Shown here: positions 13,698 through 44,100 of the stretch, piece after piece | How the letters are laid out: each line of letters begins with the position of its first letter | Numbering within the stretch: position 1 is the first letter of the stretch | NCBI GenBank assembly: GCA_002723275.1 | Contig: PBNZ01000035.1 | Span: 20,184 to 84,183 of the forward strand | From: Planctomycetaceae bacterium | GTDB taxonomy: Bacteria > Planctomycetota > Planctomycetia > Pirellulales > Pirellulaceae | Length of the DNA: 64,000 nt | Direction of reading: 5' to 3' | Position numbers and translations under genes: made by a program | Notes under the pieces: model-generated | The model's database searches: none | What the model was told of the DNA's origin: nothing | What the model saw: the letters and a program-made list of their open reading frames with translations, nothing else

Positions 13698-13974
13698 GGG
13701 TCGCCGGCAGATCAAACGTCTGCAGCCTCCGAACGAGAGTCCCTGGCAGCTCTCCCCTCCGTCCTAACCCGCTGAACCCCGGAAAGACGATGGAAGCAGA
13801 TAATGGATGAGGTATGCAACATAACAATCTAACGAATTAAGGGAGACCAACCTAGTACGATTGAGATTTGGCCCGAAGCCGGATTATAATCGCTCGTTTG
13901 TCCGAAAGATCAGATCGACGGCGTGGCAACCAGCAAAGCCAACGTCGATCACCGCCAGGAAGCGATTAACCTTT

Positions 13975-14985: not shown

Positions 14986-15073
14986 GCGACCCTGGCGATC
15001 AATGACCAGGCTTTCCCGCCGCCGATTCGACGGGAGTCATTCCCTGCTCTTGGCAATTCAATGCGACGACGAA

Positions 15074-16072: not shown

Positions 16073-16656
16073 CTCCCTTCATGCTCAAAACAATCAAACA
16101 GGTGGGCCCACCGTACAACGGTTGTGCTTGTGTTTCAACATGGCCTCTTCCATTTGACGATACTTATCGCTCGGTGCTCGCTTCATTCGAACGCAGTCCT
16201 CCATCGGCACCCGAGCAGATCACAACAAGCCTCATAACCCCATGGCCGATCACGCAGCACAAACCATCGATGTCGCTCCCGCCATTCTTTTTCAGAATCA
16301 ATCCCGGAGTCCCGATGATCCACGGGTTCTCTTCTAAGATCAGCGGCTCTGGATCGGCGGCTCCGAATTCCTGGGGGTAAGAGAGATCCAAATAAGAATG
16401 GTTTTAGACAGTTTCCTCTCGCTTCGACGGCACTTCGCGGAGCCGGAAGTCAACGCAACCCGCAGCTTCACCGTTAAAATCCAGGAAAAACCGAAATCCG
16501 GTGCTTCTCCGCCCGGTCTGCGGCAGACGAAACCGACCGAGGTGTGATACCATCACTCTTGGTGAAACTGCAGGATCGTGCTGCGGCGTTTCAACGGACT
16601 TCACGATGATCCACGCCAACGGTGATTTCGGGGCTGGAAATTATCCAGCAGGACTT
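16073..16656. other. Intergenic region between divergent genes
   Basis: This 584-base region separates the oxidoreductase (minus) from the anchored protein gene (plus). A minus-strand 75-codon frame at 16164-16391 has no recognisable motif and I do not call it. I see no repeat or RNA. A ribosome site (AGCAGGA) just before 16657 supports the downstream start. Confidence 0.45.
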
Positions 16657-26718: not shown

Positions 26719-27070
26719 AACTTCAAATCCTAAGAGTCCGTTTGGCAGATGAAGGGATCCTATCCAAATCACTAACTTGCTGACCAGTCGAAAACCCAAA
26801 AGGCCAATCCCAGCGGATTTTAGGAGTAACCGTCATTTTCGGCGATCCCCACGTGGCAGTTCCTGCCGGAACCATCTTGACTTTCCAGCACGCCATAGCT
26901 CCTGTTTGACACATTGAACGCTCTACAATACTCTGAATTTAAGGGATTCGCCGCTACGAGTCCCATTGCTTTGCCAGCGAGTCGCGACCCGAAACTGCTT
27001 CAAACCTGCCCGTTCAATTCGTCATGGCTCGCTGCTCGCCGCCCGATCGAGGATCCGGTTCACATCGTCT
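26719..27070. other. Intergenic region upstream of the cytochrome gene
   Basis: This 352-base gap holds the promoters for both divergent genes. A TTGACA at 26906 has no good -10 at the normal distance (TACTCT after 17 bases). No gene or RNA is evident. Confidence 0.4.
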
Positions 27071-29905
27071 ATGGCTAACTCCGGGAACAAGCAAGCTGCT
27101 CCATCCCCACGATCGGCGTACAAACCCGCCGTGACGCCTGAGCTGCGCCGTCTGCTTGTCATCGTGCTGATCCTGGTGGCTTTGCTCGGAGCCAATTCGT
27201 TTTACCTGGTAACCGTGACGGCGATAGAGGCCTTCACGGGACAAGCGTATCAGAACTTTTTCTATCAATACATGTTCTTGGCACACTTGGTGCTGGGCTT
27301 ATTGCTGATCGCGCCTTTTCTCGTCTTCTCGATCTGTCACATGCGCAACACTTGGCGACGCAAGAATCGCCGAGCCGTCCGAATGGGTTATGGCCTGTTT
27401 GCGATGAGTCTGGTGTTGATCATCACCGGACTTTTGTTGACGCGCGCGGGCCCCCTTGAAATTCGCTCCCCCGCAGCACGGCAAGTCTTTTACTGGCTTC
27501 ACCTGGCATCACCGCTGTTCATCATATGGTTCTATTGGCTCCACCGTCTGGCAGGGCCACGCATCCAATGGCGAATTGGCGTCGGTTATCTTGCGGGCGC
27601 TGCGGCTGTCTGCCTGATCATGGTGTGGCTACACAGCTCCGATCCGCGCAGCTGGTATCAAATCGGCTCATCGGCGGGCGAAGAGTATTTCGAGCCATCG
27701 CTTGCCCGCACTCACAACGGTAAATTCATTCCGCAACAAACGTTAATGAATGACCAATATTGCAAGGAATGCCACGCCGATGCGCACGCAGACTGGGCGC
27801 ACAGTGCACACCGATTCAGCTCATTCAACAATCCCGCCTACCTTACCAGCGTGCGTGAAACACGAGAGGTCTCTCTCGCACGCGATGGAGATCCCAAGCG
27901 CGTACGTTGGTGTGCTGGCTGCCATGATCCCGTACCATTCTTTTCGGGTCAGCTGGACAATCCCCATTTCAATGATGTAACCGACCCGACGGCACACGCT
28001 GGCATCACATGTACTGTCTGTCACGCGATCACCCACATCAACAGCGTGCGGGGCAATGCGGACTTCACCATCGAAGAACCGCTGCACTATCCATTCGCCT
28101 TTAGCGAGAACCCGATGCTCCAGTGGATTAATCGGCAACTCGTCAAGGCAAAGCCCGCCTTCCACAAGAAGACCTTCCTGAAACCGTTCCATTCGGAAGC
28201 CGACTTTTGTTCGGTATGCCATAAAGTGCACCTTCCCGAGACGGTGAATGACTACAAATTTCTGCGAGGCCAGAACCACCATGATTCGTTTATGTTGAGC
28301 GGCGTCTCCGGTCATGGTGCAAGAAGTTTCTACTACCCGGAAAAAGCACAGGCGAACTGTAATGGCTGCCACATGCCGCTCCAGCCGTCCAATGACTTCG
28401 GGGCAAAGCCCTACGCCGGAGTCGATGAACCGAGCATCCACGGCCATTTATTCCTGGGCGCTAATACGGCATTACCGTTCTGGCATGGCCATACCCAGGT
28501 TCTCGAAACACACCAACGATTTCTCAAAGACTGTGTGCGAGTCGACCTCTTTGGGATTCGTGAAGAGGGACGCATTGATGGAAAGCTAACGGCACCGCTA
28601 CGGCCAACCTTGCCAGTCTTACAACCCGGCAATCGTTATTTACTGGACATTGTCATCCGCACCTTGACGTTAGGCCATCACTTTACCCAAGGCACGGCAG
28701 ACTCAAACGAAGTCTGGCTAGACGTCATCGTCCGACAGGATGGAAAGATTGTTGGTCGCAGTGGGGCACGGGATGAGCGCGGGGAAGTTGATCGCTGGAG
28801 CCACTTTGTCAACGTTTTCATGTTGGATCGAGACGGCAATCGAATCAACCGCCGAAACGCGCAGGACATCTTCGTTCCACTTTACAACCATCAGATTCCA
28901 CCCGGCGCCGCACAGACCGTGCACTATGCCCTGGACGTGCCGCCCAACAGCAACAGTCCACTTGAAATTGAGGTTAAACTTCAATACCGAAAATTCGACT
29001 ATGAATACGTAAATCTGATTGCAAAAGAGCTGACCGATACCCCACTCTCGCTGGGCAGTACGACCGCCGACCACAACGACCTGCCCATCACAACGCTGGC
29101 CGAAGATTGGATCGTTTTGCCCGTCGGCGAGGATTTTGCTTCGGATTCAAACACGGTACCAACCTCGAAGATTCCAACCTGGCAACGTTGGAATGACTAT
29201 GGCATTGGCCTGTTTCTGAAAGGCAAAGCCGAGCTTCGGCAGGCCGCTGAGGCTTTCACCGAGGTGGCTGATTTGAATCGATACGATGGCGCCCTCAACC
29301 TGGCACGCGTTTATTTTCGCGAGGGACGACTCGACGACGCGACCGCGGCCATTCAGACAGCTGCCACCCATCAAGATCCAGCTCCACCACCCTGGACGCT
29401 TGCCTGGCTCAGCGGAGTCGTGAATCGCCAGCAGGGCAGGCTGCAAGAGGCAGAGGAAAACTTCCGCAGCATCCTGGAAAAACGCACTCAAGAACAGATC
29501 GACCGAGGGTTTGATTTCAGCCGCGACTACGAAATCATCAACCTGTTAGGTCAAACCCTCTTCGAACAATCGCGAGCGATACGCGGGAAGTCTCGTGCAG
29601 CCGAGCGACAACAACTGCAACTGGAAGCCATTGAATGGTTCCAAAAGACGCTGAGCCTCGACCCCGAGAACGTCACAGCACATTACAATTTACAGTTATT
29701 GCATGCTGCCATGGATGATGACGAACAGGCCTCGCACCACCAAGAATTGCATTTGCGATACAAACCGGATGACAATGCCCGCGATCGGGCTGTCGCTGCT
29801 GCTCGAAAACGCTATCCGGCCGCCAACCACGCTGCCGAAGCCGTCGTGATTTACGACCTGAGCCGCACGGTCCCGTCGACCGATGAACAATCCCCCGAGC
29901 CCTAG
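27071..29905 (+). CDS. Transmembrane pentaheme cytochrome c with TPR repeats
   Basis: The frame opens with TTG at 26966, but the ATG at 27071 is the better start (944 residues; positions below use it). Residues about 25-190 hold about five transmembrane helices. Helix two region carries H72 and H90, and helix four carries H144 and H158, spaced 14 apart as in b-type heme proteins. Five CxxCH motifs follow at 231-235, 281-285, 314-318, 380-384 and 430-434, a c554-like multiheme arrangement. A beta-rich region and TPR repeats (about 700-920) complete the protein. This could carry electrons from membrane to envelope; b-heme binding is inference. It leads the CRTAC1 cluster, 39 bases before the next gene. 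Confidence 0.85.
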   Translation: MANSGNKQAAPSPRSAYKPAVTPELRRLLVIVLILVALLGANSFYLVTVTAIEAFTGQAYQNFFYQYMFLAHLVLGLLLIAPFLVFSICHMRNTWRRKNRRAVRMGYGLFAMSLVLIITGLLLTRAGPLEIRSPAARQVFYWLHLASPLFIIWFYWLHRLAGPRIQWRIGVGYLAGAAAVCLIMVWLHSSDPRSWYQIGSSAGEEYFEPSLARTHNGKFIPQQTLMNDQYCKECHADAHADWAHSAHRFSSFNNPAYLTSVRETREVSLARDGDPKRVRWCAGCHDPVPFFSGQLDNPHFNDVTDPTAHAGITCTVCHAITHINSVRGNADFTIEEPLHYPFAFSENPMLQWINRQLVKAKPAFHKKTFLKPFHSEADFCSVCHKVHLPETVNDYKFLRGQNHHDSFMLSGVSGHGARSFYYPEKAQANCNGCHMPLQPSNDFGAKPYAGVDEPSIHGHLFLGANTALPFWHGHTQVLETHQRFLKDCVRVDLFGIREEGRIDGKLTAPLRPTLPVLQPGNRYLLDIVIRTLTLGHHFTQGTADSNEVWLDVIVRQDGKIVGRSGARDERGEVDRWSHFVNVFMLDRDGNRINRRNAQDIFVPLYNHQIPPGAAQTVHYALDVPPNSNSPLEIEVKLQYRKFDYEYVNLIAKELTDTPLSLGSTTADHNDLPITTLAEDWIVLPVGEDFASDSNTVPTSKIPTWQRWNDYGIGLFLKGKAELRQAAEAFTEVADLNRYDGALNLARVYFREGRLDDATAAIQTAATHQDPAPPPWTLAWLSGVVNRQQGRLQEAEENFRSILEKRTQEQIDRGFDFSRDYEIINLLGQTLFEQSRAIRGKSRAAERQQLQLEAIEWFQKTLSLDPENVTAHYNLQLLHAAMDDDEQASHHQELHLRYKPDDNARDRAVAAARKRYPAANHAAEAVVIYDLSRTVPSTDEQSPEP

Positions 29906-29944
29906 GATTCCCCTCACGCTCCTCGGCCTCAAAGCGAAACTTAC

Positions 29945-31822
29945 GTGCCCAAGCCTCCTGAAATCCACCGTTCCGATAGCGAACCTGCTTCGCCCGACGA
30001 AATGCGACATGACGATGACGCGGTGATTGGCCGCGCCTTCCGGATTTCGATTATCGTCATTGTCCTGCTCGCAGTTATCGGAGGAGGGCTTGCCTGGTAT
30101 TTAACCCGCAGCGATGAGACAGTTGCCGATCAACAGGAGCAGATCATACTACCGCAAAATCGCAATGTCTCCGCAGTCACGCTACCTCACATCCCGTTCA
30201 CCGATATCACACAGAATGCGGGTCTGAATTTCACTCATGAGAATGGTGCAACCGGAGAAAAGCTCCTTCCTGAAACAATGGGAGCGGGCTGTGCCTTTCT
30301 CGACTATGACAATGACGGCGATCAGGACATCTTCCTGGTCGACTCACAGCGATGGCCTTGGGACGAGCAACCGGAAACCGAACAGCCCACGGCTCTTCTT
30401 TATGAGAACGATGGCCAGGGAAACTTCACGGACGTCACCGAAGAGAAGGGCATTGACGTGGCCGCCTATGGCATGGGCGTCGCGGCAGCTGACTATGACA
30501 ACGATGGCTTGATCGACTTATTCATTTCAGCGGTTGGCTCAAATCGACTTTTGAAAAACGAAGACGGTGTGTTCACCGATGTCACCGATCAACTAGGAGT
30601 GGCCGGAGAAGCTGATCGCTGGAGCACAAGTGCGTGCTGGTTTGACTTTGATAACGATGGTGACTTAGATCTTTTTGTCTGCAACTACGTGACCTGGTCA
30701 AGGGATATCGATCTCGCTCAAAACTTCCAGCTGACCGGAATCGGCCGTGCTTATGGTCCGCCAACGGCGTTCGAAGGAGCACAACCCTATCTCTATCGCA
30801 ATGACGGTGACGTCTTTCGCGACGTATCGACAACGAGCGGTGTCCAGCAAGTCAACGTCAACACGGGCGTTGCGCTGGCCAAGAGCCTCGGCGTCATCCC
30901 AGTGGATCTGGATGAGGATGGCTGGCTGGACCTGGTGGTCGCCAACGATACGGTTCGGAACCTCTTATTCCGCAATCAAGCGGACGGAACGTTTGAGGAA
31001 ATCGCGATCAATTCCGGAATGGCATTCGACGCTCAAGGCAAAGCGCGCGGTGCGATGGGAATCGACGTTGCTCATTTCCGCAATGACGAGTGCATTGGGA
31101 TTGCCATTGCAAACTTCGCTAATGAAATGACGGGGCTTTACGTTTGCGAAGACAGCTCTCTACTGTTCACGGACGACGCGATCCCCACCGGCCTTGGCCC
31201 TCCTACTCGAATGGACCTTTCCTTCGGCTTATGCTTTGTCGACATCGACCTGGACGGCCGCTTGGATCTCTTGGCAGCCAACGGGCATCTCGAATCCGAG
31301 ATCAACACGGTTCAATCGAGCCAGCATTACCAACAACCCACCCGACTCTTTTGGAACGCCGGTCTTGAAGGACAAACGGAATTCGTTGCGATGAATCGTG
31401 AACAGCTTGGGGATGATTTCGAAACTCCTCTGGTTGGCCGAGGCGCTTCCTATGGGGACATTGATGGTGACGGCGACCTGGACGTGCTGCTCACGCAAAA
31501 TGGAGGCCCGCCTCTTTTGCTAAGAAATGACCAGCAACTCGAACACAACTTTCTCCGGTTCAAACTAACAGGAACGCAAAGCAATCGGGATGCGATCGGA
31601 GCCAAGGTCATCGTACAGCTCAGTCCTGATCAAAAACTGACACGCATGGTGATCCCTGCAGGTAGCTATCTCTCGCAGAAGGAATTCCCGGTCACGATCG
31701 GCCTGGGAACAGAGACGAATATCGAGTCAGTGACGGTGATCTGGCCAGACGGAACAGCACAGGCAGTGAATGACTGGAACTTAAACAGTGTCACGACGGT
31801 CACTCAAGATGCCAAGCCATGA
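29945..31822 (+). CDS. CRTAC1-type FG-GAP/ASPIC protein, membrane-anchored
   Basis: The GTG start gives 625 residues with an acidic N-terminus and a single transmembrane helix (ISIIVIVLLAVIGGGLAWYL). At least six calcium-binding FG-GAP/VCBS repeats follow (DYDNDGDQDIF, DYDNDGLIDLF, DFDNDGDLDLF, DLDEDGWLDLV, DIDLDGRLDLL, DIDGDGDLDVL). The end is a UnbV/ASPIC domain (SVTVIWPDGTAQ). Such proteins form beta-propellers on the outside of the membrane. It belongs to a different subgroup from the two CRTAC1 lipoproteins downstream (it has YGPP where they have FCGP). The next gene overlaps its end. Confidence 0.9.
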   Translation: MPKPPEIHRSDSEPASPDEMRHDDDAVIGRAFRISIIVIVLLAVIGGGLAWYLTRSDETVADQQEQIILPQNRNVSAVTLPHIPFTDITQNAGLNFTHENGATGEKLLPETMGAGCAFLDYDNDGDQDIFLVDSQRWPWDEQPETEQPTALLYENDGQGNFTDVTEEKGIDVAAYGMGVAAADYDNDGLIDLFISAVGSNRLLKNEDGVFTDVTDQLGVAGEADRWSTSACWFDFDNDGDLDLFVCNYVTWSRDIDLAQNFQLTGIGRAYGPPTAFEGAQPYLYRNDGDVFRDVSTTSGVQQVNVNTGVALAKSLGVIPVDLDEDGWLDLVVANDTVRNLLFRNQADGTFEEIAINSGMAFDAQGKARGAMGIDVAHFRNDECIGIAIANFANEMTGLYVCEDSSLLFTDDAIPTGLGPPTRMDLSFGLCFVDIDLDGRLDLLAANGHLESEINTVQSSQHYQQPTRLFWNAGLEGQTEFVAMNREQLGDDFETPLVGRGASYGDIDGDGDLDVLLTQNGGPPLLLRNDQQLEHNFLRFKLTGTQSNRDAIGAKVIVQLSPDQKLTRMVIPAGSYLSQKEFPVTIGLGTETNIESVTVIWPDGTAQAVNDWNLNSVTTVTQDAKP

Positions 31823-33569
31823 AACTTCCTTCATCGCGAGAGTCGACTTCTGGCGTCGCTCCCGTTGTGCAACGATCTTGCTGCTGCTGATGATGACCGG
31901 ATGTCGGCCTACATCATCCCAACCGGATCCAACGACCTCACGGAACACTGAATCCAAACAGGAACAGTTTCGCGACGTCACTCATGAAAGCGGCATTTCC
32001 TTCACTCAGGTTGCGGGCGGAGACGACTACTTCGTGCCACGCAGCATAGGGTCCGGCGTAGCGATCTTCGATGCCAACGGCGACAACCGATTGGATCTCT
32101 ACATAATTCAAAATGCGGGCCCGGATGGGGCTGCTTCGAACCAATTTTACCTCCAGTTGCCGGATGGCTCATTCGACGATGCCACGGACGCCGCTGGACT
32201 TCGCCACAGCGGGTGGGGCATGGGCGCCATCGCAGGAGACATCAACAACGACGGCTTGATCGACCTGCTGATTACGGAATATGGCGGAATCCGGTGTTAC
32301 CTCAATCGCAGCTCAGAGAACAACGTCCGATTTGTCGACATCACCGAACAGTCAGGACTCCAAAATCCAGCTTGGGGAACCTCAGCATCCCTCTTTGATT
32401 ACGACCGAGATGGTTGGCTGGATCTGGTCGTTGTGAACTACCTGGAATACGACCCATCCAGGCGTTGCACAGATGCAAGCGGTCGACAGGACTTCTGTGG
32501 CCCGCAATCATTCCCCCCCACGGTAGCTCGACTATTTCGAAACCTTGGAAGCAACCAGGATGCTCAATTCGAAGATGTCACCATCACCGCGGGCCTGGCA
32601 ACAAGCCTCGGAGCCGGACTAGGTGTGATCTGCTCCGATTTTGATGGCAATCAATGGCCCGATATTTTCGTGGCGAATGACGGTATTGCCAATACGCTCT
32701 GGATGAATCAGGGAGATGGCACCTTTGTCGAAGAAGCCACTCAACGGGGTGTCGCGTACAACGCATTGGGCCAGGCCGAGGCAGATATGGGAATCGCCTT
32801 CGGTGACGTAAACCAGGATGGCCTCTTTGATCTCTTCGTGACTCATCGCGCCACAGAAACTCACACTTTATGGCTGCAGGGACCTCGAGGAATCTTCGCC
32901 GATCAAACGGCAACCTCGGGCATTCCGCGCACGGCCTGGAGAGGCACAGGATTTGGAACGGCCTTCGCCGATTTTGACAACGACGGGGATCTTGATCTGT
33001 CACTCGTCAATGGCCGAGTCTTGCGTACACTCGGTCCGGTCGAACATCTGGCAGACGGACTTCCCGAATTCTGGCACGCCTACGCTCAACAGGATCAACT
33101 GCTTCGCAACGATGGCCAGGGAAACTTCGACGACATTTCGACAGAGAATCCGTCCTTCAGTCAGGCAGCTGCGGTATCCCGCGGTTTGGCATGTGGCGAT
33201 CTGAACAACGACGGCTCTTTGGATTTTGTCGTGACAACGATTGCCGGCCCCACTCATGTCTTCCAAAACACCGGCTTAAATACAGGCAACTGGTTAAATG
33301 TCAGAGCCTGGGACCCTCGCTTAAAACGCGACGCATACGGAGCTCGTCTCGAACTGCGCATTGGCGACAAATTCTATCAACGTGAAATTAATCCGGGCTA
33401 CAGTTACCTATCCAGCAATGATGTGCGTGCTCATTTCGGCGTGGCAGCAGCTCAATCGTACGATGACCTGGTGGTCGTCTGGCCCGACGGTTTGCGTGAA
33501 AGCTTTGGGGCGGGCACGACCAACCAATTCCTAACCGTTCGCCGTGGCGATCAAGGCGGTTCAAATTGA
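31809..33569 (+). CDS. CRTAC1-type FG-GAP/ASPIC lipoprotein (copy 1)
   Basis: The frame opens at 31788; the ATG at 31809 overlaps the previous gene by 14 bases and gives 586 residues. A lipobox (LLLLMMTGC) predicts lipid attachment. VCBS/FG-GAP repeats such as DANGDNRLDLY, DINNDGLIDLL, DYDRDGWLDLV, DFDNDGDLDLS and DLNNDGSLDFV run through the protein, with an ASPIC end (YDDLVVVWPDG). It is paralogous to the protein at 37666-39450, with shared landmarks DYFVPRS/DYFMPRC and YDPSRRC...FCGP. Its stop overlaps a possible TTG start of the following TPR lipoprotein gene. Confidence 0.92.
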   Translation: MPSHETSFIARVDFWRRSRCATILLLLMMTGCRPTSSQPDPTTSRNTESKQEQFRDVTHESGISFTQVAGGDDYFVPRSIGSGVAIFDANGDNRLDLYIIQNAGPDGAASNQFYLQLPDGSFDDATDAAGLRHSGWGMGAIAGDINNDGLIDLLITEYGGIRCYLNRSSENNVRFVDITEQSGLQNPAWGTSASLFDYDRDGWLDLVVVNYLEYDPSRRCTDASGRQDFCGPQSFPPTVARLFRNLGSNQDAQFEDVTITAGLATSLGAGLGVICSDFDGNQWPDIFVANDGIANTLWMNQGDGTFVEEATQRGVAYNALGQAEADMGIAFGDVNQDGLFDLFVTHRATETHTLWLQGPRGIFADQTATSGIPRTAWRGTGFGTAFADFDNDGDLDLSLVNGRVLRTLGPVEHLADGLPEFWHAYAQQDQLLRNDGQGNFDDISTENPSFSQAAAVSRGLACGDLNNDGSLDFVVTTIAGPTHVFQNTGLNTGNWLNVRAWDPRLKRDAYGARLELRIGDKFYQREINPGYSYLSSNDVRAHFGVAAAQSYDDLVVVWPDGLRESFGAGTTNQFLTVRRGDQGGSN

Positions 33570-33574
33570 GTCGG

Positions 33575-34924
33575 ATGCTGAACTTTGCAAAACCCTCCAA
33601 CACACACTTCACCAGCCTGCTGGTCGGTGTCGCTGTCGTCATGTCGTTGATGGGCTGCGGAGGCGATTCCGAAAAGCCATTGCCGAGCGAAGCAACCACA
33701 ACAAACCAACCTGTTCAACTCCAGCTACCGAACCTCGTCGCCGACGAAACCGATCCAGCGGTCGCGAAGGCGATTCGAGAACGCCACCAGTTACTCGAAT
33801 CCAGCCCAACGTCTGCGGAACGTTGGGGCGAACTCGGAATGACGCTGTTGGCGCACGATTATTTTGCCACAGCGGCTTCCTGTTTCACCAAAGCAGCAGA
33901 ACTCAACCCGACCGTTGCTCGCTGGCCGTATTACGAGGCGATCGCCCTTCAGCATGATCAACCGCGACAGTCCATCAATCGACTACGACGGGCCGTCGAA
34001 CTTTTCCCAGACGAGGAACAGGCGGCCAAACTACGTTTAGCCAAAGCGTTGATTCAACACGGCGACTCGACTGAAGCTGCTGAACTGCTCCGAAAAGTCC
34101 TGGCCGCAGACTCCGAACACATCACCGCCCGGATCAACCTGGCCAAAACGGAGTTACTCCAGGATCGTCCTCAGGGTTGTCTCGACGAACTCGCTCAACT
34201 ACCGCGTGGAGATGCGACTCGGACTGAACTATTACTCTCAGCAGAGGCCCTGCGGCGCCTCGGGCAAATTGAAGAAGCGACACGAGTATCACGCGAGGCG
34301 CCATCCGCTATCGATACTCCAACGGTTGACCCGCACTTTCTCCCAGTCATCCGGCTCAAGACAGGGCTAAAGGCCGGCTTGGATACCGCGACTCAACTTT
34401 TAACAGCAGGGAGAACACAGGAGTCGATTAAACTTGCCGAACAACTGGTCATTCATTACCCGAAATCGGAATGGGCTCATATCACACTGGGCCGCGGACT
34501 CATTCGAATTCGTCGACTGGCCGACGCTGAAAGGGCTCTCAATAAGGCTTTGGAGATCAACGGCAATTCCTATGAAGCCTTGTTTCGAATGGCAGTCGCC
34601 AAACAATTGCAACAGCAGCACGAACAAGCCGCAAGTTGGTATCTCAAGACAGTTGAACGTCACCCCAATGCAGCCATCGCTCATAAAAACCTGGGCCAGT
34701 GCCTGATTGCTCTGGGCGACTTGCAAAGTGCAGAGAGTTCCTTTCAGGATTCCGTGATCGCTCAACCCAATTACATCGACGGTCATCTTGCGTTGGCAAG
34801 TCTCTATGCCAAACAACAGCGTACCAATCTCGCCCTGGCTGCCTTGAGGGATGCACAACGACTGAAACCTAACGACGCCGCCATCAAAGCAGCCATCGAG
34901 CGTTTGGAACGATCTCTCCGCTGA
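33575..34924 (+). CDS. TPR-repeat lipoprotein (copy 1)
   Basis: I prefer the ATG at 33575, five bases after the previous stop, over the overlapping TTG at 33566. The 449-residue product has a lipobox (VMSLMGC) and about eight tetratricopeptide repeats in the form ...A...G....A...L..A..L.P. It is clearly paralogous to the protein at 39461-40909 (RWGELGMTLLAHDY versus HWGELGMVFFAHDF). TPRs bind other proteins, so a scaffold for its CRTAC1 neighbour is likely. Confidence 0.9.
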   Translation: MLNFAKPSNTHFTSLLVGVAVVMSLMGCGGDSEKPLPSEATTTNQPVQLQLPNLVADETDPAVAKAIRERHQLLESSPTSAERWGELGMTLLAHDYFATAASCFTKAAELNPTVARWPYYEAIALQHDQPRQSINRLRRAVELFPDEEQAAKLRLAKALIQHGDSTEAAELLRKVLAADSEHITARINLAKTELLQDRPQGCLDELAQLPRGDATRTELLLSAEALRRLGQIEEATRVSREAPSAIDTPTVDPHFLPVIRLKTGLKAGLDTATQLLTAGRTQESIKLAEQLVIHYPKSEWAHITLGRGLIRIRRLADAERALNKALEINGNSYEALFRMAVAKQLQQQHEQAASWYLKTVERHPNAAIAHKNLGQCLIALGDLQSAESSFQDSVIAQPNYIDGHLALASLYAKQQRTNLALAALRDAQRLKPNDAAIKAAIERLERSLR

Positions 34925-35309
34925 TCATCACGGCGCTAACAGAACGCATCAACAACTTCTGATGCATCTCCCCCCTGAACGCACTCCCCCCCTCGTTGGA
35001 GTATCCAAACGGATCAAAACGGGGAAGTTCATGGTTTCTCTGCGATCGGCTGCTTGACACTTGATGTTGGCCTATTTACCGTCGTCAATAACAGAAAATC
35101 CAGAACGACTGTAACGAGGCTGCGCGCCAACTCGAATGATGGTGTTCAGCCCGTGAAGCGTCCTTGATCTGAATTTGTTTTGAAGGCGGGTGCGTCGACA
35201 TAGTCGTCATTTCGTGCCGCTTTGTCTGCTCCGTCATTGAATGGAGAACGTGTAGTACCTAGCGCATCTTGAGTGAGTCACGCAAACTTGTACAAAGAGG
35301 GATTTTACA
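34925..35309. other. Intergenic region before the lectin-like gene
   Basis: These 385 bases contain no gene that I can support. A good ribosome site (AAAGAGGG) precedes the ATG at 35310, so the promoter of a separate transcript probably lies here. A TTGACA around 35054 lacks a clear -10 partner. No hairpin terminator of the upstream operon is obvious. Confidence 0.45.
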
Positions 35310-37307
35310 ATGAAAGTATTTGGTGCTTTATTCACTGCTGTGTTTGCTGCGGCGACCTTGACGTCGGTCGCCAGCGGGCAACTCTACAAGCAGGACTTTA
35401 CAGCCGACTTTCCGACGCCAGCCGACCCCGGACTGGTAACCGTCCTGTTAGAAAGCCCTGACGGTGACGTCATTGCACCGTTCGTTGATTTTCCGGTCAT
35501 GGGTTTGACGATGTACAACGGTCGTCATCAGGTCGCTGCCCGAACAGGTGGTGCCAATGCAAACCAGGAAGTCTCGGAAATCACCAGCGTGTACGAACGG
35601 GATGGCGCCTCGACAACCGTGACCTACGGTGAAAACGACGATTGGCAAACGGGTGGAGCGAACTATGAACCCGAGTGGGGTTGGTTGCAAGACGGATTTG
35701 TCACGCTGTCAGAAGACGGCATTGGCGGCGTTCAATCGGCTCTTGCCTGGGATCAGAAGTATGACAATGCTTACGATCAGATCACGCATACGTTTGCGTT
35801 TCAGATCAGTGGCGTTGGTGATCCCAATAACGACCAGGCAGACGGTATTGGCTGGTCTTACCTGAACAGCGATGACAACGACATTACGGGCATCGTTGGT
35901 CCTGGCATTTCAGAGGAGCCTAGCTACAACGGTTCGCTCGGTGTTGGCTTTGACATTTGGAACAATGGCAGCGAAGGCGGAAACTCAATCTCCCTTCATT
36001 ACAACGGTTTGGTTCTAAAAAGTTATGCTATCGACGAAGGTGAAACGGATCCGAACACCGGTGACGACTGGGCCTTCAACTCGTTTGAGATTGACGACAT
36101 TTTCACGGCAACGATTATCCAGAAGCCTGGTACCGACGAATTGAGCGAACCCGTACTCAGCGGCGGATCGGCTTACCAATCCTGGAATCGAAGTGGTGCA
36201 GGCCCTGAGCTTGTCCAAGGTGGCGATGCTCCCAGCACGGACGGTTTCCTCCGCGTCGTTCCCGAAGCAGGCGGTAGCGCCAACGTGGTCGCCTTTGATT
36301 ACGCAGGTAGTGATCCCGACGGCGATTTCTCGACAAGCTTTGAATTCCGTGGTTTGGACGAGGCTGGAACTCGTGCTGACGGCATGGCATTCCTGCTCGT
36401 GCCGACCGAACTCTACGACGAAGAAGGCGCTGAACTAATCGAATTTGGTCCTCACGAAGAACCCAATTTGGCAGGCGCATTAGGCATTGGTTTTGATACG
36501 TTCAACAATGACAATGCCGCTCAAGATGATCCGGAAGAAATGCCCAATGTGGGCAACCACATTTCGGTCCACTTCGATGGAGAAAAGTTGCTTCAATACA
36601 ACCTCGACATTGAGGAAGAAATCGACCTCGTCACCGATGATGCAAATCTCTGGCACACCGCCGAAGCATTCATCTCGGGTGACAACCTGACGCTCATCGT
36701 GACTGATGGTGCGGATGACAGTGAACACGTCATCTTTGACGAAGAGATTGACGGTCTTGGAGAGATCGGTTCCTTCCGTCCGGCTTTCGCGGCACGTACG
36801 GGCGGTGCCTTTGATCACTATGATGTTGATAACTTCGTTCTCGGCTCGGGCGATCCTTCGGTGCCCGGCGATTACAACGCAGATGGTAGCGTCGACGTCC
36901 AAGACATCGACCTTCAGGCCATCGCAATGAACGACGCGAATCCTGATCTCGGCATTTACGACGAGAACAATGATGGCGCCGTCAACATTGCAGATCGCAA
37001 CATCTGGGTGTCAACTCACGCGAGCACCTGGATGGGCGACTCGAACTTTGATGGAGCGTTCGGCAGTAGCGACCTCGTTGTCGTTTTCACCGCCGGCAAA
37101 TACGAGGCTGACACGGCAGCCGGCTGGGCCGAAGGCGACTGGAATGGCGACCTGAAGTTCAGCAGTAGCGATCTCGTGACGGCCTTCACCGATGGCGGTT
37201 ACGAAGCCGGTCCTCGTGCCGCAGTCGCAGCTGTACCCGAACCCTCCAGCATCGTCTTGCTGATGATCGGTTCTCTGCTGATGTTGCGAGTTCGTCGTAA
37301 GTCGTAG
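35310..37307 (+). CDS. Lectin-like, dockerin-like, PEP-CTERM surface protein
   Basis: The 665-residue product has a signal peptide (ALFTAVFAAATLTSVASG). Two L-type-lectin-like beta-sandwich segments follow, about 60-270 and 290-510, each with ADG(I/M)..., a GxxFDxxNN strand and a NxISxHxNG/DG motif. Residues about 518-635 hold four EF-hand-like loops (DYNADGSVDVQD, DENNDGAVNIAD, DSNFDGAFGSSD, DWNGDLKFSSSD). The end is a PEP-CTERM tail (PEPSSIVLLMIGSLLMLRVRR), which directs sorting to the cell envelope. A strong terminator follows. It lies between two paralogous CRTAC1/TPR pairs. Confidence 0.88.
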   Translation: MKVFGALFTAVFAAATLTSVASGQLYKQDFTADFPTPADPGLVTVLLESPDGDVIAPFVDFPVMGLTMYNGRHQVAARTGGANANQEVSEITSVYERDGASTTVTYGENDDWQTGGANYEPEWGWLQDGFVTLSEDGIGGVQSALAWDQKYDNAYDQITHTFAFQISGVGDPNNDQADGIGWSYLNSDDNDITGIVGPGISEEPSYNGSLGVGFDIWNNGSEGGNSISLHYNGLVLKSYAIDEGETDPNTGDDWAFNSFEIDDIFTATIIQKPGTDELSEPVLSGGSAYQSWNRSGAGPELVQGGDAPSTDGFLRVVPEAGGSANVVAFDYAGSDPDGDFSTSFEFRGLDEAGTRADGMAFLLVPTELYDEEGAELIEFGPHEEPNLAGALGIGFDTFNNDNAAQDDPEEMPNVGNHISVHFDGEKLLQYNLDIEEEIDLVTDDANLWHTAEAFISGDNLTLIVTDGADDSEHVIFDEEIDGLGEIGSFRPAFAARTGGAFDHYDVDNFVLGSGDPSVPGDYNADGSVDVQDIDLQAIAMNDANPDLGIYDENNDGAVNIADRNIWVSTHASTWMGDSNFDGAFGSSDLVVVFTAGKYEADTAAGWAEGDWNGDLKFSSSDLVTAFTDGGYEAGPRAAVAAVPEPSSIVLLMIGSLLMLRVRRKS

Positions 37308-37665
37308 TTCGACTTCTGAAAAACCTTCTAAGCGAGGGCACCTCAACAGGTGCCCTCGCTTTTTTCTTGGGGGTAACACAATTGGCTTCCAGGGGCAGAT
37401 CCAGGCCATCTCGGGCGATACTCGCCGGCAATACCGGGTCTCCATCCCACAGGCCCCGTATTCCGCCGGAATGAGCTATGATGAAGATATCGGTTGCGAT
37501 CCCCTGACTGGGCAACCTAGACCGGCAGTGGAGTTTCTCGGTTGCGCGAACCGGAAGGCTCTTGGGATCGTTTCAATACCAGGAACCGATCGGTCCCATG
37601 TTTTTCCTGCGGCGTGCCAACCACTCCCAGCCGAGTTCTTCTCACCTTTGGATCTGACATTGAAA
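37308..37665. other. Intergenic region with terminator
   Basis: These 358 bases hold the terminator at 37331-37365 and then the leader of the next gene. The frame of that gene stays open from 37471, but the region before 37666 is not protein-like for this family, because the lipoprotein signal starts at 37666. Confidence 0.5.
37331..37365 (+). terminator. Rho-independent terminator
   Basis: A perfect 13-base GC-rich stem (AGCGAGGGCACCT with its complement, loop CAAC) is followed by a run of T's. It ends the transcript of the PEP-CTERM protein gene 23 bases after its stop. Confidence 0.93.
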
Positions 37666-39450
37666 ATGACTGCGACTTGCCGACTCAACTTTTCGGCGTT
37701 GATCTGCTCGGCATTGATCTACCTGACACTGATCAGCTTGGCGGGTTGCCAAGACAGAGACTCAGAAAACAACGCCCCGGAAGGCAACGGTCAGCAAACG
37801 TCATCTGGAAATCCGAACGAATTCGCAGTGGCTCCCTTGCTGGAAGATGTCACTTCATCCACGGGCATCGACTTTCGCCACCAACCGGTTGATCATGAAC
37901 AAGACTATTTCATGCCGCGTTGTGTCGGTTCAGGCGGAGGCTTCCTGGATTTTGACAACGACGGTCGCCTGGATATTTACCTGCTCCAAAACACCGGTCC
38001 GGATTCAGGCATCACCAACCGGATTTACCGACAAACCGATGCAGGCTTTGTTGATGTGAGCAGTGGCTCCGGACTCGATGTCGATGGCTTTGGCATGGGA
38101 CTCGCTTGCGGCGACGTGAACAATGATGGCCGCATTGATGTTTTGCTCAACGAATACGGTCGGGCGCGGCTGTTCTTGAATCAAACCGAAGGGACACAGC
38201 CCCGCTTTACCGACGTGACCGCCGCAAGCGGCCTGGAAAATCGGATGTGGGGAACTTCAACCTGTTTCTTCGACTTTGACCGAGATGGCCTGCTCGACTT
38301 GTTATTGGTGAATTACGTCAACTACGATCCTTCTCGCTGGTGTGCTGAGGGCGGAGGACAACAAGAGTTTTGCGGACCGGATGCATTTCCAGGTCGCGTT
38401 ACCAAGCTTTTCCACAATGACGGCATGGACGAGGCAGGTAATCCTCGTTTCACGGATGTCACCATCAGCGCAGGACTCGGCGAACACCCCGGTCCGGGAC
38501 TTGGCGTGTTCTGCGCCGATTTCGACGGTGATCGCTGGCCTGACATTTTCATTGCGAACGATGGAAAACCGAACCATCTTTGGATCAATCAACAAGATGG
38601 GACGTTTCGGGAAGAGGCGATTACGCGTGGCCTTGGCTATAACAGCATGGGGAAGAGTGAAGCCGACATGGGAATCGCCATCGGTGACGTGAATAGCGAT
38701 GGTCAATTCGACATCTTTGTCACTCACTTGACCTCAGAAACCCATACCCTGTGGAGTCAGGGACCTCGTGGGATCTTCATTGACCGGACCGCAACATCCG
38801 GCTTAACCGCAACGGACTGGCGAGGCACTGGTTTCGGGACGGGGATGGCGGACTTGGATAACGACGGCGACCTTGATCTGCTCATTGCAAATGGTCGAGT
38901 CACACGTCTACAGGGCGCAGAACTCGCGATCTCAGACGAGCTTCCTGAATTCTGGCGTCCCTACGGGGAGCGAGACCAGGTCATGTTGAATGACGGGCAG
39001 GGGAGCTTCATGGACGCCTCGGAATCGAACCCGGCATTGAGCGGGGTTGGAAATGTCTCACGAGGCCTTGCTTGCGCCGACTTTGACAATGACGGCCGGC
39101 TTGACGTGCTGATCACCCGCATCGCAGAGGCTCCCAGCCTGCTGCGCAACGTCGCGCCCCAGCAAAACCATTGGCTCATTGTCCGCGCCATTGATCCAGA
39201 CCTCAATCGCGACGCCTATGGGGCGGAGATTTATGTCCAACAGGGTGATAACCGTTTGATGCGATGGATCAACCCCGGATACAGTTATCTTTCCAGCAAC
39301 GATCCGCGCGCCCATTTCGGTCTCGGAAAAGCGTCAACGATTGATCATATTGAGGTTTTCTGGCCCGACGGCAATGCAGAACGATTTACCGTGACCGAGG
39401 TCGACCGACAGATAACGCTTCGTAAGGGGGAAGGATCCGCGATCCAATAA
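37666..39450 (+). CDS. CRTAC1-type FG-GAP/ASPIC lipoprotein (copy 2)
   Basis: The frame opens at 37471, but the ATG at 37666 starts a clear lipoprotein signal (ALICSALIYLTLISLAGC), giving 594 residues. FG-GAP/VCBS repeats (DFDNDGRLDIY, DVNNDGRIDVL, DFDRDGLLDLL, DLDNDGDLDLL, DFDNDGRLDVL) and an ASPIC tail (DHIEVFWPDG) are as in copy 1. Conserved shared segments (YDPSRWC...FCGPD, ETHTLWSQGPRGIF) show it to be a duplication of the gene at 31809. Ten bases separate it from the paired TPR lipoprotein gene. Confidence 0.92.
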   Translation: MTATCRLNFSALICSALIYLTLISLAGCQDRDSENNAPEGNGQQTSSGNPNEFAVAPLLEDVTSSTGIDFRHQPVDHEQDYFMPRCVGSGGGFLDFDNDGRLDIYLLQNTGPDSGITNRIYRQTDAGFVDVSSGSGLDVDGFGMGLACGDVNNDGRIDVLLNEYGRARLFLNQTEGTQPRFTDVTAASGLENRMWGTSTCFFDFDRDGLLDLLLVNYVNYDPSRWCAEGGGQQEFCGPDAFPGRVTKLFHNDGMDEAGNPRFTDVTISAGLGEHPGPGLGVFCADFDGDRWPDIFIANDGKPNHLWINQQDGTFREEAITRGLGYNSMGKSEADMGIAIGDVNSDGQFDIFVTHLTSETHTLWSQGPRGIFIDRTATSGLTATDWRGTGFGTGMADLDNDGDLDLLIANGRVTRLQGAELAISDELPEFWRPYGERDQVMLNDGQGSFMDASESNPALSGVGNVSRGLACADFDNDGRLDVLITRIAEAPSLLRNVAPQQNHWLIVRAIDPDLNRDAYGAEIYVQQGDNRLMRWINPGYSYLSSNDPRAHFGLGKASTIDHIEVFWPDGNAERFTVTEVDRQITLRKGEGSAIQ

Positions 39451-39460
39451 CTGAAGTTCG

Positions 39461-40909
39461 ATGCCGCAGTATCCCTTTCACGTAACCGGTCGACCGCTCC
39501 CCGTTTGCGATCATGCCAGGCGGTCCCGATACCGAGCGATCCTGTTGTCGTTAGGGCTCATCCTCGGCAGCCTGACTAATGTCGGCTGCAATCACAGTGA
39601 GACAGCATCTCCACCGCCTCCAACCAACATTGATCCTCCCACGGTGGATGGAGACACGATCGACCCTGAGGTTGCAGCCGCCATCGAGTCGGCCAGCAAG
39701 TCAATTCAGGCAAACCCCACAGAAGGACGCCACTGGGGAGAACTCGGAATGGTTTTCTTCGCGCATGACTTCAAGGGTCAGGCCATCAAGTGCTTTCAGC
39801 AAGCCGCCGTGCACTCGCCAGAAGAAGGACGTTGGCCTTATCTCGAAGCACGGTGTATCGCAGCTATCCGCCCCAAAGAGGCTGAACAACTTCTCAGCCA
39901 AGCTGTTTCACTCTGCGGAAACGATCCGCCGTCTGTAAGACTGTTTCGTGTTGAGCTGCTCCTGGAGCTCATGCAACTTGACGAAGCCGAAGCAGAGCTC
40001 AACCTATCTCTTGACCATGACCCGAACAACGGTCGCGGCCAACTTGCGTTGGCAAGGTTGCTCTTCATGAAAGAGCAACACCAGGACTGCATGGATGTCC
40101 TACAGAAACTCGACGCGAACCTGAATTCAGCGAACGAACAATCTGGGCGTCGACAACCTCTTTATTTACTGGGGGCGGAATCTCTCCGACGACTAGGCAA
40201 ACCTGAACAGGCGGAGCAATTACGAAAGCAGGCGATGACCCAGGTTGAATTCGCATGGCCCGATGAATACATGAGCGAAGTCAGCAGTCGCAAAACAGGC
40301 CTGAAGACCTATTTGGTCAAAGCGGACCGCCTCTACAACCGCGGACAGTATGAACCATCTATTGCTTTACTTCGGAACACGGTCGCCGGCTACCCGGATT
40401 CGTTGTGGGGAAAGATTCTACTGGGTCGTGCTCTGATCCGAACCGGAGGCCCGAGCAGCTCCTATCCCCAGGACGAAAAACAAAAGAGGCTGCTTGAAGC
40501 AGTCCAGATCCTGGAAGAAACGCTCCAGACGGACCCGAACGCGGTCGAAGCTTATTTCCGACTTGCCGTTGCCAAAGACTATCTGCAAGACCTGGATTCA
40601 GCCATCGACCTCTACCAACAGGCGATCAAGTTAAAATCCGATTTCACAATGGCTCACTACAATCTCGCCAGTTGCCTCAATCGCAAGCGTGATATGGACG
40701 GGGCCATTCAAGCTCTTGAGGCATCCGTGCAGGCCGAACCCGAATTTGTCGACGGGCACCACATGCTCGGGCGGCTACTTATTGCTCAACGCCGTTATCC
40801 TGAAGCGGCCAAACATCTTGGGATTGCCAGTCAATTAGCCCCCAGCAATCAGCAAATTGCAGAACGATATCGGGCAACCATGGAAAAAGCCCAGGTTCTT
40901 GATGACTAA
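39461..40909 (+). CDS. TPR-repeat lipoprotein (copy 2)
   Basis: The 482-residue product has an N-terminal hydrophobic helix ending in a lipobox (LTNVGC). TPR units run from about residue 85 to the end (for example YLQDLDSAIDLYQQAIKLKSD). It is a paralogue of the protein at 33575-34924 and the pairing with a CRTAC1 lipoprotein is repeated, so the unit CRTAC1 plus TPR has been duplicated as a whole. Predicted location is the outer side of a membrane. Confidence 0.9.
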   Translation: MPQYPFHVTGRPLPVCDHARRSRYRAILLSLGLILGSLTNVGCNHSETASPPPPTNIDPPTVDGDTIDPEVAAAIESASKSIQANPTEGRHWGELGMVFFAHDFKGQAIKCFQQAAVHSPEEGRWPYLEARCIAAIRPKEAEQLLSQAVSLCGNDPPSVRLFRVELLLELMQLDEAEAELNLSLDHDPNNGRGQLALARLLFMKEQHQDCMDVLQKLDANLNSANEQSGRRQPLYLLGAESLRRLGKPEQAEQLRKQAMTQVEFAWPDEYMSEVSSRKTGLKTYLVKADRLYNRGQYEPSIALLRNTVAGYPDSLWGKILLGRALIRTGGPSSSYPQDEKQKRLLEAVQILEETLQTDPNAVEAYFRLAVAKDYLQDLDSAIDLYQQAIKLKSDFTMAHYNLASCLNRKRDMDGAIQALEASVQAEPEFVDGHHMLGRLLIAQRRYPEAAKHLGIASQLAPSNQQIAERYRATMEKAQVLDD

Positions 40910-41107: not shown

Positions 41108-44100
41108 ATGAAGCGACATAATCCCCAGGCTAACCGCATGTTCACTTCAAACACAATCCGACGTTCAAGGCTGAAGAGCCGGAAGACAAAACTTGAGGCT
41201 CTCGAACCTCGTGTTGTCTTGGACGCCAGTTTGATCATCTCTGAATTAATGGCCTCGAATGATACCGTCTTGCTGGATGAAGATGGTGAATCAAGTGACT
41301 GGCTAGAGATCTCAAACCCATCGGCCTATACGGTCGAACTGGAGGGATGGTATCTAACCGACAACATTGATCGGCCCACAAAATGGGAGTTCCCCGAATC
41401 AAGCCTGGAACCTGGTGAGGCGATTGTCGTCTTTGCTTCGGGCAAGGATCGTGATCGCTCAGAGACAAACCTTCACACCAACTTCAAGTTAAGCGGAAGC
41501 GGTGAGTATCTAGCCCTGGTTGCTCCGGATGGCTTTACTGTCGTGGATCAATACTCGCCGTACCCTGAACAATACACAGACATCTCCTATGGCCCGGAAC
41601 AATCGACTGAAGATCGGACGCTGATTTCAACCGACGCGCCGGCACGAATTTATCTCCCCACATCGGCTGCGAATGACATCCCAACGGCCACATGGACGGA
41701 TATTGGATTCAACGATTCCCAATGGACATCTGCCTCAGGCGGCGTGGGCTATGACACCAACTCCGTCGACGGAGATTTCAACTCGTTAATCGCAGCTGAC
41801 AGTCGGCTGGACTCCATGCGCGATACGACGGCCTCGGCTTATTACCGTTCGACGTTCCAAATCGATGGAACCGTACCGGCCTTTACCAGCCTGGGTCTGG
41901 AATTGAATTACGACGATGGCTTTGTCGCCTACTTGAACGGCACCGAGGTTGCAAGAAACCTGGCTCCGGCATCCCTCGGCTGGAATTCAACGGCAACCGG
42001 CGAGCGAGGTGGAGAAACATCAGCGATCGTTTACTCGGATTTCTCTGACGAGGATGACCGTGACACGTTCACGCTTCTTGGAAATGCCACCTGGGAAGGC
42101 GATCGATTGCGACTCACCACTAACGACCTCCTCCAAACGGGCGCTGCCTGGGTTACCGAACCGATGGTGCTCGGACCGGATTACTCGTTCACCGCAACGA
42201 TGCGCATCAACGCTCACTCGCCCAACGGAATCATCGACAACGACGGTCGTGGCGGTGACGGCATGACGTTCGTCCTGCAGAGTGGTGGCAACAATCGCCT
42301 GGGGGGCGGCGGCGGACAACTGGGACTCGACGGTTCCGGGATGACCTTTATTGCCGTCGAATTTGACACTTTCAACAGTGGATCCTTCGATCCGGATGAA
42401 TCGCTCGGCACGCATGTCGGCATTAACACCAGCGTGGACGGCAATGTCGCTCGTGCTGCTGTGCCTCGTTTCAATGGTAGTCCCGCCGAGTTGAACGTCC
42501 CTGGCCCCGGCGTTGACGATCGGTTTGTATGGGTGGACTACATCGGAGGCCTCAATCTCCTGAACGTCTACTTTTCCGAAACCGAATCCAAACCGGCCGA
42601 ACCGACGGTTACCGCTGAAGTTGACCTGGAACAACTGTTTGGCGGCGTCAAGGAATTGTGGACCGGTTTCACAGGCGCGACAGGTATCGGGACGAACCAA
42701 CATGACGTTCAAAGTTTTTCGTTCACCGCGGGAGACGGAGAGCTTGGGCTACAACCAAGCGTGATCAACATTTCGTCGGCGGCGAATCAAATTCGCAGTG
42801 GTGAAAATGTCCTCGCCATCCACGGATTGAATATCGATGCGAGCGACGACGACTTCCTGATCCGCCCCCAACTTGTGAGCACCGTCAACGGCATCGGCGA
42901 CCCGAAGTATTTCGGCACCCCAACGCCAGGCGAAACCAACGGCACGGGAAGCGAAACACCTCCGACAGGAGAAGTATCCTACTCATCAACAACGCGCACC
43001 TTCGTATCCTCATTCGACCTGGAACTCACGGCACCTTCCCCCGACGCCGTCATTCGTTACACGACGAACGGCAGTATCCCGACGGCAAGTTCGACGCGAT
43101 ACACAAGTCCAATCCGCATTTCGTCTTCCACTCGAATTCGCGCACGCGCTTTTGAGCCAGGTCTCAGCGATGGCCCTGTCCGCAGCGAAAGCTTCGTACG
43201 CATATCATCGAGCCTCTCATCCTTTGAAGATGGCAAACCGTTTGAGTCGAATCTTCCGATCATGATTTTCGAATCATACGGAAAGAACGTCGACGGCCAG
43301 GATCGCCTGATGCAGCCGGTCACCGGTATCTTCATCAACCCAGGTGAAGACGGTGTAGCTACCATCCTGGATGAACCTGAATTCGGTGGCCGAGCGGGAA
43401 TGCGAATCCGTGGCCAGACTTCGCAGGGCTTTGCGAAAAAACAATATGCCGTGGAACTGTGGGACGAAACGAGTCAGGACACACGCGCGATAGACGCATC
43501 GCAAGCGGCGGATCAGGCCGCTGGCTTCTTCGGATTACCCGAGGAATCCGACTGGGTACTCAACGGACCCTATTCCGATAAAACGCAGCTCAACAACTAC
43601 CTGACTTTCCTTTGGAGCAACAAAGCAGGGCTTTACGCACCTCGAGCGCGCTTAGTCGAAGTATTCCTCAACCAGGGCGGTGGGAGTGTCAGTTCAGGCA
43701 GTGATTATCGCGGCACATACGTTCTGCTCGAAAAAATCAAGCTTGACGACAATCGCGTTGACCTCGAACGACTGACTCCTCAAGACCGTGAAGAACCTGC
43801 GATCACAGGTGGTTACATCTGGAAGAAGGACAAAGCCGGAGCGGGTGACCAGCCTTTCAGCACGAGTCGTGGCCAAGAACTTCGGATGGTCGAACCCGAC
43901 GATCGCGAAATCACGAACACCCAAAAGAATTGGCTCCGCAGCCATCTCAATGAATTTGAGGCGGCACTTTACGGTCCTGATTTCACCGACCCTGAAACGG
44001 GCTATGCGGCGTACATTGACGTAGCCTCGTGGGTTGATACCTGGCTACTCGTCGAAATGACAAAGAACATCGACGGCTTCCGGCTCAGCACCTATTATCA

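Follow-up and report, generated by a model that had tools for sequence, protein, structure and literature searches.

A multiheme cytochrome, CRTAC1 propellers and TPR proteins in a planctomycete: a candidate extracytoplasmic redox assembly with probable selenocysteine-containing paralogs

The stretch of 64,000 nucleotides analysed here, called the window throughout, comes from a Planctomycetaceae bacterium (GenBank assembly GCA_002723275.1, contig PBNZ01000035.1, positions 20,184 to 84,183 of the forward strand). Its 27-41 kb region encodes a multiheme cytochrome, three proteins of the CRTAC1 family (FG-GAP repeats combined with a UnbV_ASPIC domain; hereafter A, B and C) and two putative lipoproteins with tetratricopeptide repeats (TPR; T1 and T2). 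To our knowledge, no function of CRTAC1/UnbV_ASPIC proteins has been established in bacteria. We suggest, with a probability of roughly 0.55, that these genes specify a redox assembly of CRTAC1-TPR units located outside the cytoplasm. The suggestion draws on the linkage of the cytochrome to protein A across the order and on paralogs outside the window that very probably contain selenocysteine (Sec).

All genes from 26966 to 47614 lie on one strand, the plus strand. The cytochrome gene (27071..29905; the open frame opens at a TTG at 26966, and the ATG at 27071 is the likely start) encodes a hydrophobic N-terminal part, five CXXCH motifs and a C-terminal TPR region. In Pfam, the source of the domain matches on window proteins, the 26966-29905 frame shows a Cytochrome_C554-like region (27.8 bits, cut-off 20.8) along with the TPR. 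Protein A (29945..31822) has an N-terminal hydrophobic membrane anchor and, as read by eye, no lipobox. Two pairs follow, each composed of a putative CRTAC1 lipoprotein and a putative TPR lipoprotein: B (31809..33569, open frame 31788-33569) with T1 (33566..34924), which overlap by 4 bases, and C (37666..39450, open frame 37471-39450) with T2 (39461..40909), which are separated by 10 bases. A, B and C all match FG-GAP_3 and UnbV_ASPIC, the latter with 64.9, 53.2 and 74.1 bits, respectively (cut-off 23.4); the FG-GAP repeats carry calcium-type Dx[DN]xDG motifs, with Asp columns that are invariant across 28 CRTAC1 sequences. The lipoboxes, again read by eye, are MMTGC in B (31809 start), SLMGC in T1 and SLAGC in C (37666 start), and T2 has a lipobox-like NVGC. 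T1 and T2 match many TPR families, including TPR_CcmH_CycH above its cut-off, with other TPR families scoring better. Between the two pairs, the CRTAC1 proteins B and C are 50% identical and the TPR proteins T1 and T2 31%; because C is nearer to a protein from another locus (L029, 58%) than to B, the duplication in the window is old.

The pairs flank an L-type-lectin-like protein with a PEP-CTERM anchor (35310..37307). Its lectin match is weak (31.1 bits, below the family cut-off of 78.3), and PEP-CTERM, for which NCBIfam was used additionally, scores 20.2 against a cut-off of 20.7 in Pfam and 24.2 against 16 in NCBIfam. The gene layout announced by the original prediction, namely two CRTAC1-TPR lipoprotein pairs (31809-34924 and 37666-40909) on either side of this protein, with a cytochrome and a membrane-anchored CRTAC1 protein upstream, is borne out by the profile matches and the five CXXCH motifs. 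Of its lectin/dockerin/PEP-CTERM label for the central protein, the PEP-CTERM part and a weak lectin part stand; the dockerin-like repeats are visible by eye only, and the Pfam scan reported no dockerin match. Beyond T2 lies a large CotH/lamin-tail/lectin/dockerin surface protein (41108..47614; Pfam CotH, LTD four times, Lectin_legB and Dockerin_1), probably a neighbour outside the core unit. Two more sites of the genome, L026:13888-18999 and L009:12079-17196, likewise encode CotH/lamin-tail surface proteins close to CRTAC1.

The best-conserved partnership is that of the cytochrome with the membrane-anchored CRTAC1 protein, not that of CRTAC1 with TPR. Of the 146 genomes of the order, 35 (the source genome among them) gave homologs when searched with residues 36-750 of the window cytochrome. 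Outside the source genome, 36 cytochrome loci were fetched, of which two (L182 and L185) are cut by contig ends; in 33 of the 34 testable loci, an A-type CRTAC1 gene, 44-61% identical, lies directly downstream of the cytochrome on the same strand. Six of these 33 were found via tblastn (L158, L166, L169, L180, L183 and L186), and their A matches are stop-free. Exactly five CXXCH motifs are present in all 34 aligned cytochromes (the window protein and 33 homologs). In the N-terminal membrane part, which displays four hydrophobic peaks, H107 and H179 are kept in 34 of 34 sequences and H125 and H193 in 33 of 34. By sequence, no solved structure is significantly similar to the heme part. The linkage of cytochrome and CRTAC1-A points to a redox role, beyond that of an envelope scaffold. 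Another CRTAC1 gene occurs at most three genes upstream of the cytochrome in 10 of the 33 displayed loci, and in two loci (L164 and L165) the genes directly upstream include one for a TPR protein and one for CRTAC1. In the window, the gene upstream of the cytochrome is that of a divergent carbon-nitrogen hydrolase (25717-26799), of which L154 has a 70% identical copy in the same place.

CRTAC1 genes are common in the source genome, with 37 UnbV_ASPIC matches in a profile search, so that the non-random part lies in their order and pairing. Of the 60 family genomes, 52 carry the domain at least once; the copy number runs from 0 to 52, and G004, a genome of the same genus, has 52 matches. The source genome also encodes giant CRTAC1 proteins of about 1230-1360 amino acids with two UnbV_ASPIC matches each (C18:50154-54014, C5:97999-101706, C24:212672-216754 and C37:21240-24935).

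For the pairing, TPR and CRTAC1 genes were called by in-house profiles at loci that had been selected through CRTAC1 or cytochrome searches and independently of TPR, and genes at least three genes from any CRTAC1 gene served as the control (one genome, G084, is counted three times under different locus ids). Both neighbours could be seen for 98 CRTAC1 genes, and 38 of these have a TPR neighbour, compared with 10 of the 431 control genes; as the picking of open reading frames (ORFs) can hide genes under longer spurious ones, the neighbour counts of all locus sets carry such errors. An order-wide collection of B/C-type CRTAC1 genes comprised 20 neighbourhoods, two of them cut by contig ends (L208 and L223); a TPR gene is adjacent in 17 of the 18 testable ones, L218 being the miss. 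In L206, the TPR gene lies under a spurious ORF and its product is 62% identical to the TPR protein of L029. When 84,980 species genomes were scanned with the window C protein, 35 loci were obtained: a TPR gene lies next to CRTAC1 in 12, the two are fused in 3, and the other 20 (some cut by contig ends) show neither arrangement; 12 of the first 14 listed show an adjacent TPR gene or a fusion. The order of the partners varies across loci (CRTAC1-TPR, TPR-CRTAC1 or convergent), and the pair recurs with a different gene order in Planctomycetota and in Acidobacteriota-type contigs (L038 and L039); in L030, it occurs in tandem, nearly as in the window. A scan of viral contigs gave 18 loci, all at 31% identity or less. 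Across 20 pairs, the CRTAC1 and TPR distance matrices are correlated with r of 0.86, a value that includes species-tree signal (not subtracted) and that none of 5000 permutations reached; nearest neighbours agree in only 6 of the 20 pairs.

Natural fusions of CRTAC1 and TPR argue for a partnership in the sense of the 'Rosetta stone' inference, which is not one of binding. In the source genome, C35:11240-14641 encodes TPR followed by FG-GAP in one polypeptide, which matches the in-house CRTAC1 profile and for which the Pfam scan reported no UnbV_ASPIC match; CRTAC1-thioredoxin-like-TPR polypeptides are encoded there, too. In a Verrucomicrobiales contig (L053), a CRTAC1-TPR fusion immediately follows a cytochrome that has four CXXCH motifs; the structure model of this fusion is of low confidence (predicted local distance difference test score, pLDDT, 71.7; predicted template modelling score, pTM, 0.62) and too uncertain for an interface. 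Judging from gene neighbourhoods and fusions, CRTAC1 and TPR proteins are likely pair partners. The original prediction, according to which the two are kept together, holds for the excess over control genes and for the B/C-type loci, and is not supported by the 20 window-C loci, some of them cut by contig ends, that have neither neighbour nor fusion. A side observation concerns the fusion at C35:11240-14641 (L069) and that at C47:45963-49364 (L068): both are TPR/FG-GAP proteins of 1133 amino acids with same-sized upstream neighbours, reflecting either a recent duplication or redundant contigs.

Outside the window, the source genome carries CRTAC1 paralogs of the CRTAC1-thioredoxin-like-TPR type that, judging from the coding sequence, almost certainly incorporate selenocysteine. 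Each of these genes appears as two halves that share a reading frame, with the break always at one place. In 15 of 15, there is exactly one inner stop, always TGA, and homology continues for about 400-800 residues beyond it. Examples are L010:5356-9477 and 10798-14880, L017:6805-10716 and 12588-16955, and L018:4122-8027; three of the 15 genes lie within 15 kb on contig C24, and the copy at C21:2-2527 is cut by the contig end. The matches listed at 300 bits or more number 68, from 14 genomes, and 67 of them contain exactly one TGA, the 68th ending before the site; the genes among these matches amount to 15 in the source genome, 24 in G004, 10 in G034 and 8 in G050. A scan of the 146 genomes of the order, in which no more than 10 candidates were scored for any one genome, gave matches at 1e-60 in 24 genomes; a TGA-containing match is present in 23 of them, from 10 families. 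Deviating rows are those with two TGA codons in G005 and G096 and a 256-bit relative with an inner TAA in G107.

Four Sec-type proteins were searched with Pfam: FG-GAP/UnbV was found in all four, a thioredoxin-like AhpC-TSA match in all four (above the cut-off in one) and TPR in three. The in-house TPR profile called 11 of the 15 second halves in the source genome. In the Sec-type proteins, TPR_CcmH_CycH is below its cut-off, the TlpA, ResA and DsbE matches likewise stay under the curated thresholds, and none of the NCBIfam selenoprotein models scores above its cut-off. At the site of the TGA, 26 further loci show a Cys within D-[HY]-C-[TS]-x-x-W (13 loci) or a TGA within PDG-U-x-C (9 loci); L091, with two TGA codons, gave no clear call, and L234, L238 and L241 yielded no motif. 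That a single position of the propeller is occupied by predicted Sec or by Cys in the paralogs points to a redox use of the CRTAC1 fold. An ERN(C) motif follows the Sec; its last position is Cys in 36 of 50 loosely matched stretches and R, H or Q in 3, and the motif was not found in 11, some of which are false catches. That this Cys is the resolving partner of Sec is suggestive only. The PDG-U-x-C loci (L089, L090, L130 and L242-L247), in which the TGA occupies this same place in the propeller, form a second class; here the TGA is followed by a distinct inverted repeat, GGCTGT..ACAGCC, which is conserved and could form another hairpin.

A hairpin resembling the selenocysteine insertion sequence (SECIS) was counted at a fixed distance from the TGA in 47 distinct sites, with 9400 synonymous randomisations as controls. 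All six pairs form in 38 of the 47 sites versus 171 of the 9400 randomisations, and the mean folding energies are -9.6 versus -6.1 kcal/mol. In the register used, the loop starts 17 bases after the TGA, and its position 1 or 2 is a G in all 47 sites. Published criteria for bacterial SECIS elements, in the available text of the source, are a G within the opening two bases of the loop, a distance of 16-37 nucleotides from the TGA and a stem of at least 4 pairs (PMC13188914); the hairpins of the CRTAC1 paralogs agree with them in loop and spacing. Individual sequences carry paired changes, for example, G-C in place of A-U, and RNAalifold on a MAFFT alignment, in which MAFFT had inserted gaps, reported no two-sided covariation. 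Among the nine hairpins off the six-pair register, those of L028, L067 and L129 reach six pairs, by eye, when the loop is made shorter by one base, and that of L089 belongs to the PDG-U-x-C class.

The source genome encodes SelA (578 bits), SelB (386), SelD (356) and tRNA-Sec (71.3), all over the cut-offs. G003 and G018 are without SelB and tRNA-Sec over the cut-offs and have no Sec-type gene among the matches listed. Three observations break the simple rule: G034 (72% complete) has Sec-type genes but no SelB over the cut-off, G018 passes the cut-off with a SelA-like match but not with SelB, and G015 has SelB and tRNA-Sec, yet no Sec-type CRTAC1 gene and no UnbV_ASPIC match. The SelD gene of the source genome (L227, C44:1006-1932) itself contains an in-frame TGA.

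Other accounts of the in-frame TGA were considered and rejected: sequencing error or pseudogenes, because the same codon occurs at the same place in 15 genes of the source genome and in 23 genomes of 10 families; reassignment of TGA to Trp, because the site aligns with Cys and not with Trp; and general readthrough without Sec, because the complete Sec machinery and the hairpin are present. Inner TGA codons in three B/A-type matches (G067, G115 and G127) proved to be ordinary final stops.

These observations lead us to propose the following model of the window region. The core would be a quinone-facing membrane cytochrome with its own C-terminal TPR arm, in which the four conserved His residues probably hold two b hemes, with five c hemes outside, so that electrons could pass from quinone to the periplasm. 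The anchored propeller A, encoded immediately after the cytochrome, would be the second core part, and B with T1 and C with T2 would be paralogous units whose TPR arm is separate from the cytochrome. The TPR arm, presumably by binding CRTAC1, would position the propeller, and the propeller would offer a reactive or substrate-binding face; in other words, CRTAC1 would be the working head, TPR the docking arm and redox the chemistry, with A, B and C performing related reactions. CRTAC1 and TPR are combined in four layouts: next to A, the TPR belongs to the cytochrome; T1 and T2 are separate proteins; in the Sec class, a thioredoxin-like domain precedes the TPR; and in C35:11240-14641, the TPR comes first. 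Whether the proteins of the window share a redox role is, in our estimation, an even bet. More tentatively, and at somewhat less than even odds, CRTAC1 propellers might constitute an unrecognised extracytoplasmic redox class of planctomycetes, with a cytochrome branch (A) and a Sec/Cys branch that would be reduced by a fused TlpA-like thioredoxin and placed by TPR. The 'envelope system' of the original prediction appears too vague in this light, given that both the cytochrome linkage and the Sec/Cys paralogs favour redox.

Several observations weigh against the redox assembly. One testable locus, L184, has the cytochrome without CRTAC1-A. The stretch with H179 and H193 is below the hydropathy threshold, and the helix was placed there by eye. 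The B/C-type pairs mostly lie away from the cytochrome: among the 36 cytochrome loci, a 50-60% identical C gene is found only in L153 and L154 (the g67 loci). Where the paralogs have their redox residue, the CRTAC1 proteins of the window read LPEFW or PTRLFW, with no Sec or Cys, and so need not share the chemistry of the paralogs. The species-tree signal in the mirror correlation belongs here as well, and the lectin, dockerin and CotH neighbours are compatible with adhesion.

The latter possibility is the first rival explanation, namely surface adhesion or polysaccharide capture, whereby propellers and lectins bind glycans or matrix, TPR lipoproteins organise them and the cytochrome is a mere neighbour. 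Besides the lectin, dockerin and CotH domains in the window, it draws on structure: protein C, the only one of A, B and C that was modelled with AlphaFold2 (pLDDT 88.6), has murine CRTAC1 (9etn) as its closest solved fold (E 3.2e-34, template modelling scores 0.69/0.75, 22% identity; also matched by sequence profile, E 4e-51), and the solved folds that come next include PVL-type lectins and integrins. Genes for relatives of the lectin-like protein 35310-37307 stand beside C-type CRTAC1 genes in L206, L208 and L209, and in L209 the CotH-like, lectin-like, CRTAC1-C and TPR genes are consecutive; Laminin_G/CBM9 genes lie beside Sec paralogs, and in L035 a sulfatase gene follows the pair. However, adhesion has no place for the linkage of the cytochrome to CRTAC1-A, nor for Sec or Cys in the propellers of the paralogs, and we consider it unlikely, if conceivable.

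Under the second rival, there is no functional pair, and two abundant secreted families meet by chance and are multiplied by local duplication. The many UnbV matches in the genome and the window-C loci without a TPR neighbour or fusion would agree with that, but the excess of TPR neighbours over control genes, the recurrence of the pair with different gene orders in Planctomycetota and Acidobacteriota-type contigs, and the fusions speak against it and render it improbable. Least probable of all is a role in the maturation of cytochrome c or envelope proteins, with CRTAC1 units serving the folding or heme loading of c-type cytochromes: a TlpA/ResA-like thioredoxin joined to TPR is reminiscent of the reductive branch of cytochrome c maturation, and the TPR_CcmH_CycH matches, the sub-cut-off TlpA/ResA/DsbE matches and the cytochrome linkage would fit, but the better matches of T1 and T2 to many other TPR families make the CcmH match unspecific, and the 0-52 UnbV copies in the 60 family genomes are more variable than expected for a maturation factor.

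A redox assembly of CRTAC1-TPR units would matter in the first place because a cytochrome partner conserved across the order, together with a Sec/Cys site in paralogs, supplies concrete, testable chemistry for CRTAC1. If the Sec prediction is correct, the paralogs make up a sizeable family of selenoproteins whose Sec sits in a beta-propeller, outside the 119-family catalogue as far as its available text goes, and the annotations of many planctomycetes may be wrong at such loci. The Sec branch would be easily overlooked because the standard reading splits each gene at the TGA. It would have expanded, among the matches listed, to 15 genes in the source genome and 24 in G004 of the same genus, the latter being about half of the 46-gene record in the available text of its source, from one family alone.

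Among known proteins, vertebrate CRTAC1, represented by murine 9etn, has the same fold as C and belongs to the same family; we know of no tie of vertebrate CRTAC1 to TPR partners or cytochromes. Membrane quinol-cytochrome c modules consist of b-type heme helices joined to multiheme c. By this description of the class, the window cytochrome resembles them in the hydrophobic N-terminal part, in multiheme c and, putatively, in two His pairs for b heme, and differs by its C-terminal TPR arm and its CRTAC1 partner. UnbV domains have been noted in Poribacteria in the available text of one report (PMC3909097), and we found no literature on CRTAC1 and tetratricopeptide proteins in bacteria, subscription journals being mostly outside the coverage. 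In Planctomycetota and other bacteria, CRTAC1-family genes sit between the genes for the alpha and the beta-gamma heme subunits of hydrazine-synthase-like proteins, according to the available text of PMC12758564. These clusters share with the window an FG-GAP/CRTAC1 gene inside a heme-protein cluster and differ in that the heme proteins are others; TPR or tetratricopeptide is absent from the main text of that paper. The clusters give an independent hint of a redox role, to the extent of that text.

For the Sec branch, the available text of a 2026 catalogue lists 119 prokaryotic selenoprotein families (PMC13188914); no CRTAC1, FG-GAP or UnbV family was seen there, and these words are absent from its main text. 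Selenoproteins occur in planctomycetes (PMC4807772, where the main text does not contain 'ASPIC'), and the available texts on bacterial selenoproteomes report 39 selenoprotein genes (PMC5029168) and a record of at least 46 (PMC12013277). No literature joining CRTAC1, UnbV or FG-GAP with bacterial selenoproteins was found in a partial survey, mostly without subscription journals, which does not prove novelty. The closest counterparts are the TlpA/ResA-like UGC proteins and the ExtKL cytochromes described in the available text of PMC13188914, which share with the CRTAC1 paralogs the TGA, a SECIS-like hairpin, the Sec machinery and Cys homologs. The CRTAC1 paralogs differ from known selenoproteins in that their predicted Sec would reside in the beta-propeller part.

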